Origin: Cryobacterium roopkundense
GTDB lineage: Bacteria; Actinomycetota; Actinomycetes; Actinomycetales; Microbacteriaceae
DNA: 64,000 nucleotides
Reading direction: 5' to 3'
NCBI RefSeq assembly: GCF_014200405.1
Contig: NZ_JACHBQ010000001.1
Span: forward strand, 2,790,001 to 2,854,000
The position numbers and the translations under genes are program-made. This document shows, piece after piece, positions 17,478 through 20,838 of the stretch; position 1 is the first letter of the stretch; each line of letters starts with the position of its first letter. The notes beneath the pieces were generated by a model. That model was not told the DNA's origin and ran no database searches. It saw only the letters and a program-made list of their open reading frames with translations.

Positions 17478-17647
17478 CTGGTCGAGGAACGCCGTCTACG
17501 GCGTGTCTCGAGCTGAGGAGGCGCTTCGCGCCATCGTGGGATGCGGAATGCGTCGCGGTTTTCCCCTTTCCGCTGGTCGAGGAACGCCGTCTGCGGCGTG
17601 TCTCGAGACCGGGTGAGCCGAGTCTGAGAGTCGGCCTGCGCGGTCTC
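17478..17647. repeat. palindromic intergenic repeat (copy 2, left part)
   Basis: Two tandem copies of CTGGTCGAGGAACGCCGTCT followed by GGCGTGTCTCGAG occur near 17479 and 17573. The second is followed by a spacer and GCGCGGTCTC, which ends exactly where the IS110 element starts. The missing half (GAGACGCTCG to CCTCGACCAGCG) continues at 19102-19132, so the insertion split a member of the dispersed family. Confidence 0.75.
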
Positions 17648-17653
17648 TGTAAT
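17648..17653 (+). promoter_or_regulatory. -10 half of the IS110 circle-junction promoter
   Basis: TGTAAT is the first hexamer of the element. When the two ends are joined through one TC core, it lies 17 bp after TTGACA at the right end (19079-19084). Confidence 0.65.
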
Positions 17654-17659
17654 GGTTAT

Positions 17660-17880
17660 AGCTGGTCTGGTTATCAGCTGGCAGGCTGGTCTTGATTCGT
17701 GTGGGTTGCGTGACTCTTTTGGTCTCTGACCCTCTTCACGGAGGTGTCTTCGTCTCGACATGTCCGCTCCACGCATCGAATCGAGGCCGGCCTGTGACCC
17801 TCAGAGTGACTTGATTAGAAGCCTGTCCGTACCCCCGACAGGGTCGTGACTCATTACAGAGATGTTCTCCGAGGAACCCC
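17660..17880 (+). ncRNA. IS110 bridge RNA (candidate)
   Basis: This non-coding left-end region folds into two loops in the order known for IS621 bridge RNA. Target loop: a closing stem TGCGTG/CACGCA (17707-17712 with 17770-17775), left target guide GGTCTC (17721-17726), an inner hairpin GACCCTC/GAGGTGTC, and right target guide CGTCTCGA (17751-17758). Donor loop: a closing stem near 17799-17806 with 17867-17874, left donor guide TAGAAGC (17816-17822), hairpin CTGTC/GACAG, and right donor guide CATTACAGA (17852-17860). The guides match the flanks or element ends with the expected polarity. RNA ends are approximate. Confidence 0.8.
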
Positions 17881-17917
17881 AGACCGGCACGACATAACAC
17901 CCATCGAAGGAGTTATC

Positions 17918-18964
17918 GTGACCATGGTCTCACAGCAGTTCAGTTATGTCATCGGGGTGGATACCCATGCCAAAACGCACACGCTGGTCGCCCTCGACCA
18001 TCTGGGCGGCAAACACGGCACCGCGCAAACATTCCCGACAACTCCGCCCGGACTCAAACGGGCTCAGGCGTGGATCGAACGCGAAACAACGGGGCCGGTT
18101 TTGGTGGCCATGGAGGGCACCGGGTCCTACGGAGCCCAGTTCTGCGACCTCCTGACGGCCGCCGGCGTGCGCGTCACCGAAACCAGGCCGCCCAAGCGCG
18201 GCGTTCGCCGGGCCGGCAAAACCGACCCCATCGACGCCGAGCACGCCGCCCGCTACGCCCTCGCCCTGCCAATGGAGCACCTCATCACGCCCCGCAACCA
18301 CGCTGGGCACCACGCAGCCTTGACGGTGCTACTGACCGCGCGCGCCGCCCTCAAGAAGGCCCACAGCGCCTCCAACAACCGCCTCACAGCGCTGCTGCGC
18401 GGGTACGGTTTCGGCCTGGACGTTCGCCTGGCCCTCACCGCCGAGCAAGTCAAAGTCGTCGCAGCCTGGCGCGCCCATCGAAACGATGACGTCGGCATGG
18501 TCACCATCCGCGCCGAGGCTGCCCGCGAAGCGCGAGAGATCCTCAGCCGTCAAGCCGAGCTCACGGCGAACGAGAAGGGCCTCCTCAAGCACGTGAAAGC
18601 CCTCGCCCCCTACCTGCTGCTTGAGCACGGCGTCGGCGCGATCGTCGCCGCGCAGCTGATCGTGTCGTGGTCGCACCAGGGACGCATCCGCTCCGAGGCC
18701 GCGTTCGCCCGCTTCGCGGGCATCGCGCCCATCCCCGCGTCATCGGGCAACACCATCCGCTACCGTCTGCACCGCGGCGGCGACCGGGCGCTCAACACCG
18801 CCATCTGGGTCACCACGTTCTACCGCTACCACCACGACCCGGCGACCGCCGCCTACGTCGAGAAACGGACGAAGGAAGGCAAGACACCCAAGGAGATCCA
18901 ACGCGTCCTGAAACGCTACATCGCCCGGCACCTGTTCCGCGTCCTCGATAACCACACCATCTAA
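17918..18964 (+). CDS. IS110-family transposase (bridge-RNA-guided recombinase)
   Basis: A 348-residue recombinase. The N-terminal RuvC-like DEDD domain has VIGVDTHAKTH, VAMEGTGSYG and KTDPIDAEHAA with the acidic residues. The C-terminal Tnp_20 domain has GIAPIPASSGNTIRYR, whose Ser is the likely nucleophile, followed by LHRGGDRALNTAIW. AAGGAG (17907-17912) precedes a GTG start by 5 nt; an ATG at 17924 is an alternative, 11 nt away. Length and both domains are complete, so it should be active. Confidence 0.93.
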   Translation: MTMVSQQFSYVIGVDTHAKTHTLVALDHLGGKHGTAQTFPTTPPGLKRAQAWIERETTGPVLVAMEGTGSYGAQFCDLLTAAGVRVTETRPPKRGVRRAGKTDPIDAEHAARYALALPMEHLITPRNHAGHHAALTVLLTARAALKKAHSASNNRLTALLRGYGFGLDVRLALTAEQVKVVAAWRAHRNDDVGMVTIRAEAAREAREILSRQAELTANEKGLLKHVKALAPYLLLEHGVGAIVAAQLIVSWSHQGRIRSEAAFARFAGIAPIPASSGNTIRYRLHRGGDRALNTAIWVTTFYRYHHDPATAAYVEKRTKEGKTPKEIQRVLKRYIARHLFRVLDNHTI

Positions 18965-19078
18965 AACGTCACCACCGCCCAGCGGACAGGCCATCTTCGA
19001 CGGCCCGCCCGCCACCCTCACGCGCCCAAAAACACGCCACACGACTCACAAAACATCATCAAAAAAGACCTCAACAGC

Positions 19079-19084
19079 TTGACA
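19079..19084 (+). promoter_or_regulatory. -35 half of the IS110 circle-junction promoter
   Basis: TTGACA lies 15 bp before the right core TC. Together with the core this gives a 17-bp spacer to TGTAAT of the left end in the circular form. It has no -10 partner in the integrated state. Confidence 0.65.
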
Positions 19085-19099
19085 ACTCCCATAGAAGCG

Positions 19100-19135
19100 T
19101 CGAGACGCTCGTGCCTCGCTCCTCGACCAGCGGGC
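19100..19135. repeat. palindromic intergenic repeat (copy 2, right part)
   Basis: TCGAGACGCTCGTGCCTCGC and then TCCTCGACCAGCGGGC continue the repeat cut by the IS110 element. The sequence parallels 31630-31665. Confidence 0.75.
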
Positions 19136-19183: not shown

Positions 19184-20650
19184 CTAGCCCGATGCGGAGC
19201 TGGCCGTATTGGCGCGGTGGGTGGCGGCGGGCCGCCAGGAGCGGGTGGGGTCGAAGAGTACCGGACCTCGCACCTCGGGACGGCCTCGCACCATGCGTAT
19301 CTCCCACCCGGAGCTGTCGATGGTGGCGTGGTGGTACCAGCAGAGCAAAGTTCCGTTGTCTATGTCGGTCTTTCCGTGGTGTTGCCACGGGATGATGTGG
19401 TGAACTTCGCACCACGCCGCCGCTACCGTGCACCCCGGTATGACACATCCGCCGTCCCTCGCGGCGATGGCCCGGCGCTGGGCGGTGGTGAAGAACCGCT
19501 TCTTTTCACCCAGCCGCAGTACCTCGCCGTCTTCGCCGAGGAACACGTTCTGGTAGCCGCCGGCGCACATCTTCTGCCTCACGGTGCGGAGTGAGATCGG
19601 CGCCTCGACCCCGTCGACCCACCCGACACCGGTCCCGCTCTTCAAATCTTTGGCGTTTACGTGCACCATCACCACGGGTGCCGCCCCTCCCATAGTGGGC
19701 GTCTTCGCGTCGCGCGCCTTCGACTCAAACACGCCCCGGAGGATGTCCGCTCGTTTCTCACCGCCGGTGCGCGGGTCGTCGAATTCTTCCGCCCCGGGAA
19801 TCAGCTCCCCGGCCTCGATCAGGGCCTGCTGCTCCGCACTGGGGAACGCGGGGGCCGCGTGGGCCGAGAGGAACGTGTTGAAGATGCCGTCCATGATGCC
19901 CTTGAGTTCCGGCGTCACCCCGCCCCGCAACGGATACAGCCCGGCCTTGAAACGGCCGAACCCCACCGTGCTCTTCGCCGCTGTCTGCTCGTCACTGGGT
20001 GCGGCGCCGTCGGGGTCGAGTCGCGCTTCCCATTCGTGGGCCTGCGCCCGGATCAGGTCGGCGGAGAACGCGATCCCCGCCCCCGGCAGCCCCTCGGTCT
20101 CGGGCGTGATCGCCCCCGTCGCCGACGCCACCAGCGCCCGCTCCGCCCGATCCAAAACCTCCGGAGCAACCCGCCGCGACAGCGGCTCGAGGGCCGTCAC
20201 AATCACCTCCGCCGCATCCACCCCCAACTCACCCGACGCGAGCCCCTCGGCGACCGCCGGATGTTGCACCGGGATCTCCTGCCCGAGCAGCCCGCTGGCG
20301 GAGTGGGCCGCGCCGCTGACCAGGCCGCCGAGCCGCATCCGCCGCTTCGCTTCCGAACCCGAGATGCGTGTCACGGCGGTGATCAGCTCGTACTTACCTC
20401 GACATCCGTTCTTATACGCCAGCGACTCATGACCCAGGGCCGCATCCGCCCGGCTGGCCACGTCTGTCGCCGACGCCACCCTCGCCCCATCCGCCCGGCG
20501 CCCCAGCTTCTCCACCGCCGCCATCACGGCCAGAGCCTCATCCCCGGTGAACTGCTGGAAATTCACCTCCGCCAACGCAGCAGCTACCGAGGCGTCTGCC
20601 CTCTCCAGTAGGGCGACCACCTCGGAACCTGACTTCTGCATCGTTAACAT
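19184..20650 (-). CDS. DUF222 / HNH endonuclease family protein (13E12-type)
   Basis: This 488-residue protein belongs to the actinobacterial DUF222-HNH family. The N-terminal helical DUF222 domain spans about residues 10-330, and the C-terminal HNH motif includes CVIPGCTVAAAWCEVHHIIPW with Cys pairs and LLCWYHHATID. These proteins are often multicopy and associated with repeats; cleavage in vivo is not proven. The start is uncertain: ATG at 20650, ATG at 20641 or ATG at 20677. It lies 84 bp from the IS110 element and its host repeat. Confidence 0.88.
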   Translation of the reverse strand: MLTMQKSGSEVVALLERADASVAAALAEVNFQQFTGDEALAVMAAVEKLGRRADGARVASATDVASRADAALGHESLAYKNGCRGKYELITAVTRISGSEAKRRMRLGGLVSGAAHSASGLLGQEIPVQHPAVAEGLASGELGVDAAEVIVTALEPLSRRVAPEVLDRAERALVASATGAITPETEGLPGAGIAFSADLIRAQAHEWEARLDPDGAAPSDEQTAAKSTVGFGRFKAGLYPLRGGVTPELKGIMDGIFNTFLSAHAAPAFPSAEQQALIEAGELIPGAEEFDDPRTGGEKRADILRGVFESKARDAKTPTMGGAAPVVMVHVNAKDLKSGTGVGWVDGVEAPISLRTVRQKMCAGGYQNVFLGEDGEVLRLGEKKRFFTTAQRRAIAARDGGCVIPGCTVAAAWCEVHHIIPWQHHGKTDIDNGTLLCWYHHATIDSSGWEIRMVRGRPEVRGPVLFDPTRSWRPAATHRANTASSASG

Positions 20651-20838
20651 GCCCCCATTCTCCCACCAATCGAACACGAATGCGAGGATAACTCAGGTTA
20701 GGATGCAAAGAAATAGAAACTTTGCTCCAAGACTTCGACAGGGGGTTTCGAGAAAGCGCGCAGAAGTTATCCACAGGGCGGGCGGCATCCGCTTGTCACT
20801 GGCTACTGTGGAAAAGAACGAGGAGAGGTGTCGCCAGC

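Follow-up and report, generated by a model that had tools for sequence, protein, structure and literature searches.

IS621, described in 2024, is one of the known systems closest to the locus studied here, and both its bridge RNA and its targeting of a REP element are already published (PMC11208160). According to the portions of the papers drawn on here, pairing with the CT core is strongly preferred in IS621 (PMC11208160), and the top strand is cut 3′ of that core (PMC11208158). In the seekRNA elements ISEc21 and ISEc11, non-coding RNA regions match both strands of the target and lie, in the IS110 type, upstream of the gene; natural redirection by changed guides is described there for the pairs ISEc11/ISXne4 and ISEc21/ISMch6 (PMC11187229, in the part covered). 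The window, a stretch of 64,000 nucleotides from Cryobacterium roopkundense, very probably contains an IS110-group element with a left-end bridge RNA that guides its insertion into a REP-like palindrome. A system of this kind, REP targeting and natural redirection had all been published previously, as far as the covered text of PMC11208160 and PMC11187229 goes, and the locus confirms a known mechanism in a new bacterial group.

The earlier note had likened the locus to IS621, and the guide order, polarity, loop placement, left-end location and recombinase type all fit the published account in the part of it used here (PMC11208160). Both elements carry IS110-group recombinase domains and an RNA in a long left end (PMC11208160 and PMC11208158, as covered). 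In both, the left target guide (LTG), right target guide (RTG), left donor guide (LDG) and right donor guide (RDG) follow in this order in two internal loops, pairing involves both strands, and a REP element serves as the target. The differences, again relative to the covered accounts of IS621, are a TC core instead of CT and an RTG match of 8 bases including the core, as compared to 4 base pairs in IS621 and up to 7 in other orthologues. The repeat, the host and the RNA sequence also differ, and the recombinase similarity is weak (E 1.4e-6). ISAar29 has Arthrobacter as its host. It is a member of the IS110 group for which bridge RNA guides and core have been predicted (PMC11208160, in the part covered). 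ISEc21 and ISEc11 belong to families other than that of the window element and are likened to it by their description, as far as this was available.

The element (Table 1) is bounded by a 2-base TC overlap at either end. Its non-coding ends measure 270 bases on the left and 135 bases on the right, the long-left and short-right arrangement of the IS110 group with bridge RNA. An IS1111 arrangement, whose RNA sits in a long right end and whose subterminal inverted repeats measure 7-17 bp, was rejected because the RNA and the long non-coding end lie to the left of the gene. The longest frame for the recombinase begins at 17846. The protein matches the Pfam domains DEDD_Tnp_IS110 (69.6 bits, cut-off 29) and Transposase_20 (51.5 bits, cut-off 21.3). 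Among solved structures, ISCro4 and IS621 are the only matches at E 0.01; the ISCro4 transposase (PDB 9t56) is the best, yet at E 2.5e-7 only, and the likeness is one at the protein level. In the weak pairwise alignment with ISCro4, which spans both domains, the acidic motifs and a Ser-Gly of the second domain are in register; these are candidates for the four acidic residues and the serine of catalysis in the IS110 family. A minus-strand frame adjoining the element (19184-20677) presumably resembles a 13E12-repeat HNH-type protein.

Table 1. Positions in the window of the element, its predicted RNA and guides, its gene and its flanks
Feature	Position	Strand	Remarks
IS110-group insertion sequence (left end, recombinase gene and right end)	17648..19099	+	Ends fixed by comparing copies in two genomes
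Left flank ending GGTC-TC	17635..17647	+	Left target and core, part of the REP-like repeat
Bridge RNA, predicted extent	17682..17876	+	Covariance model match, 149.1 bits
LTG, GGTCTC	17721..17726	+	Equals 17642-17647
RTG, CGTCTCGA	17751..17758	+	Complement of 19100-19107
LDG, TAGAAGC	17816..17822	+	Equals the right element end, 19092-19098
RDG, CATTACAGA	17852..17860	+	Complement of 17646-17654
DEDD recombinase gene	17918..18964	+	GTG at 17918 after AAGGAG, likely start, picked by inspection
Non-coding right end	18965..19099	+	Last bases TAGAAGCG, the left donor
Right flank	19100..19133	+	Core TC and right target GAGACG, then the remainder of the REP-like repeat

The four guide matches given in the earlier note were all found again at exactly the same positions. 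For fixed ends, the four guides in order score 27 out of a possible 33, whereas 20,000 dinucleotide shuffles gave a mean of 9.6 and a maximum of 21 and never reached 27; the note's judgement that four ordered matches are unlikely by chance is borne out. As controls, eight coding-region stretches scored 7 to 11 and the reverse complement of the left end 13. Taken singly, the guides are equalled in 80% (LTG), 1.6% (RTG), 1.6% (LDG) and 0.07% (RDG) of the shuffles. The LTG by itself is no evidence, the 6-nt match having rightly been called weak, and the other three are significant singly. The complementarity of the RDG reaches 11 bases if extended. Over its 10-base column range (17717-17726), the LTG matches at 6 of 10 positions and most relatives match at more, which counts against the bridge-RNA explanation. 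When the ends were left free, chance solutions scored up to 23 (the scan range excluded the true solution); fixing the ends from several copies therefore matters, and four-guide scans with free ends were set aside. Rfam at gathering thresholds gave nothing but 16S rRNA in the window. Neither a sigma-70-type promoter nor a terminator was found at 17560-17960, and we count this against the bridge-RNA explanation as well.

The consensus fold of the left ends comprises five helices with 42 pairs; 93.2% of the cells are paired, and double changes occur in 31 pairs. Its covariation score is 0.502, as compared to 0.245 in shuffles, none of 500 reaching the observed value; slid controls did not exceed 0.127. 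The guides occupy columns 50-59, 94-101, 163-169 and 207-215, all in unpaired stretches, so the possibility raised in the earlier note that they might lie in stems is not what the fold gives. Two internal loops hold them and the structure is conserved, as in IS110 bridge RNAs. The folding energy of the 270-base left end is low relative to shuffles (z −3.72). A 191-base part folded alone is no better than shuffles (z 0.23), which is counted against the bridge-RNA explanation, and the two loops folded singly are not clearly better (z −1.45 and −0.60). The stem TGCGTG/CACGCA, which the note had proposed as closing a loop, is not conserved in the family; the target loop is closed by a bulged helix, G(U)GAC/GUCC.

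Five copies of the element lie in its own genome and five more, at about 99%, in the related genome G017. The left junction reads GGTC/TC in nine of these ten copies, and in eight of the nine with a readable right junction the latter is TCGAGAC followed by G (six) or A (two); the sequence beyond the repeat differs. All eight copies with the TCGAGAC junction have the same orientation relative to the palindrome. The target is the inside of a REP-like palindrome, GGTC-TC-GAGACG. The flanks of the copies, on which the earlier note had staked its assignment, fit the guides at nine of ten left and eight of nine readable right junctions. Ten empty sites in the own genome read GGTCTCGAGAC followed by A or G, each continuing into the remainder of the same REP-like repeat, and three of them adjoin an inserted copy. 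Copy E (L050) lies outside the repeat, with TGTCTC on its left and TCGTGATG on its right; the guides match these at 5 of 6 and 6 of 8 positions, which counts against the explanation. An orthologous empty site for copy E was not found, the 57 genomes of the genus giving short, weak matches to the right flank at most, so the empty-site evidence comes from other repeat copies in the same genome.

Several further features surround these copies. Other DNA has broken into L050 (G000:C1:4054800-4059300) close to its right end, and in L056 the right end is missing. At L051 (G000:C1:123000-123800), about 30 bases of a right end stand alone beside the repeat and are apparently the remnant of a deleted copy. 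An intact REP-like repeat in inverse orientation is located at 17577-17610, about 35 bases to the left of the insertion, and the same is seen at L047 and L049. Plasmid records gave partial IS110 matches at best, none covering 80%.

A DNA search for relatives, which is insensitive, matched 4 of 299 genomes. The element in the nearest named relative, Cryobacterium sp. Y50 (L066), is 79% identical and has the same ends and donor guides with other target guides. Its left guide TTGCGATC agrees with its own flank TTGTGATC at 7 of 8 positions, and its right guide TCGGCA equals the flank TCGGCA. Relative to the window element, L066 is redirected by changed guides, like the ISEc11/ISXne4 and ISEc21/ISMch6 pairs as described in the covered part of PMC11187229. 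Genome G134 has two copies; the left guide TTCCCTTC is identical to the flank on the left of L123, and that of L122 reads ATCCCTTC; both contigs stop short of the right end. The own genome also holds a second IS110 family (about 38% protein identity, five copies). Four of its copies were read (L104-L107, at G000:C1:1871200, 483800, 594100 and 1316800) and the one in L108 was left out. Two left guides occur among them, one base apart: GAGCTTGTC in L104 and L105 and GAGCCTGTC in L106 and L107, each in agreement with the flanks of its own copies.

An alignment of 29 left ends served to take the guides by column, blind to the flanks. The initial set held 46 loci, eight of them without a usable left end (L023, L025, L027, L038, L060, L086, L093 and L098); in the other 38 the left end was set by donor-guide complementarity and the end motif, some being off by one base, and nine near-identical rows were omitted. 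For 18 distinct elements, the non-core bases of the left guide that match number 4.06 of 8 for the own flank and 1.93 for other flanks; the right end is readable in 13 of them, where the right guide matches at 5.0 of 8 and 1.83, respectively (the right flank of L050 being a manual entry). With L039, omitted from that test, included and a one-base shift allowed, the left guides of 19 elements match their own flanks at 7.9 of 10 positions and others at 3.6. The own flank is the strict best of all in 12 of 19 elements on the left and in 9 of 14 on the right, a result that we count against the bridge-RNA explanation.

Searched against 396 genomes of the order, a covariance model built from 22 left ends detected the RNA in 64, a number that includes the own genome and some training genomes. 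The large test used 91 loci, 89 from model matches together with L046 and L066; the own-genome copy L126 was unused. The left-end motif is present in 87 of the 91 (absent from L144, L188, L193 and L202). Among 45 distinct guide pairs, the left guide matches its own flank at 5.73 of 8 positions and others at 2.17 of 8. The right guide, in the 33 pairs with a right end, matches at 4.45 of 6 and 1.62 of 6, respectively, counting three right ends that are probably wrong (L143, L191 and L199). For the 41 pairs with representatives outside the model rows, the values are 5.78 and 2.21 on the left and 4.45 and 1.65 on the right (29 with a right end); at least two of these pairs, of L135 and L156, recur in elements used to build the model. 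In each of the three tests (18 elements, 19 elements and 45 pairs, the 41-pair subset included), 0 of 100,000 permutations reached the observed match; as the elements are related to each other, this count is no strict probability. The target guides vary on the same predicted RNA backbone, each following its own flank.

By analogy with published relatives, the left end of the element would be transcribed to give the bridge RNA. The target loop would pair with both strands of the palindrome GGTC-TC-GAGACG, and the donor loop with the joined ends of the element itself, TAGAAGCG-TC-TGTAATG. The DEDD recombinase would swap strands at the core, and a circular form of the element would be inserted in one orientation relative to the repeat, its target sequence being GGTCTCGAGACG; catalysis and circle formation, too, are modelled on published relatives. 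What can be read from the DNA itself are the predicted guides, a conserved fold, insertion sites, unoccupied sites and guide-flank covariation. One could suppose instead that palindrome and element ends are recognised directly by the recombinase protein and that the guide matches are a by-product, for instance captured fragments of the repeat. The ten nearly identical copies would allow this, as among them guides are indistinguishable from any other fixed sequence. Among the relatives, however, the backbone is kept and the guide columns vary, every guide tracking its own flank, and in the second family the one-base guide change accompanies the same change in the flank (L104 and L105 as compared to L106 and L107). 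We regard recognition by the protein as extremely improbable.

Small, if somewhat larger, is the probability that this is a bridge-RNA element that is now immobile, its copies being old remains or having spread by recombination between repeats. The surrounding repeats could recombine, and damage is seen in the interrupted L050, in L056 without its right end, in the remnant L051 and in the in-frame stops of the recombinase in two of the five G017 copies. Exact ends in different unique contexts and in different repeat sub-types speak against it, as does the stop-free recombinase frame in all five copies of the own genome. The preferred reading remains a bridge-RNA-guided element inserting into the REP-like palindrome.

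The core was given in the earlier note as TC rather than CT. This holds for the window element; across the wider clade, the C alone is shared. The left register is clear for 35 of the 45 guide pairs, and in all 35 the base adjoining the left end is C, while the first core base varies (A in 14, T in 9, G in 6 and C in 6). That base agrees with the left guide in 31 of 35 and disagrees in 4, the latter being against a relaxed core or undeciding. At the right junction, T comes first in 30 of 33 and C then follows in 31 of 33. The RTG base opposite the first core base is T in 30 of 33, even at targets with another base, which is likewise against or undeciding. Copies of one element differ at this position: in G666 the core is GC once and CC three times, and in G682 AC five times and CC once. 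In G548 (L133 and L161-L165, six copies) and G535 (L138 and L168, two copies), the left junction is GC and the right TC. These elements sit in the palindrome ACCTCGC-GC-GAGGT, whose core differs from that of the donor. Unoccupied, the palindrome ACCTCGCNCGAGGT occurs on the forward strand 35 times in G548 and 45 times in G535; among the matches listed, its N is G, three times C and never T. An unoccupied site with C at the first core base is found once each in G666 and G748. In G682 the site tested has a single match that is unoccupied, and its first core base is T instead of A or C, which is again against or undeciding.

Read from these junctions, the donor core would be TC and the target core NC, some natural targets differing from the donor at the first core base. 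The LTG would read the first base of the target core; the left junction would keep the base of the target and the right junction that of the donor. Cleavage of the top strands 3′ of the core, with inheritance of that strand, would leave the base of the target at the left junction, and the cut reported for IS621 fits this (PMC11208158, in the part covered). A natural mismatch between target and donor core was not found described in the open-licence literature searched, including the covered parts of PMC11208160 and PMC11208158. On our reading, a relaxed target core goes beyond the IS621 accounts, as far as these were covered, at the level of the clade.

The G(U)GAC/GUCC helix is present in both loops in permuted order (17708-17768 and 17825-17851 in the window). 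In the target loop it is the closing helix, pairing columns 43-47 with 105-108 outside the guides; in the donor loop it is the base of the hairpin, pairing columns 172-175 with 201-205 inside the guides. Five of its eight pairs are identical in 22 of 22 rows and three vary, with one broken cell overall. The LTG and RDG come after GUGAC, and the RTG and LDG come before GUCC. The two loops resemble a single module in circularly permuted forms, in which the LTG would correspond to the RDG and the RTG to the LDG. We lean towards the joint reading of a half-relaxed core (donor TC, targets NC) with loops sharing G(U)GAC/GUCC as a permuted module, and hold it with moderate confidence.

A complete bridge-RNA system is thus readable from raw sequence, and an actinobacterial family is opened up in which dozens of guides are naturally paired with their targets. 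If the targets need only NC, the choice of sites in this clade would be wider than that of IS621, and the junctions would then be natural evidence on which strand is inherited.
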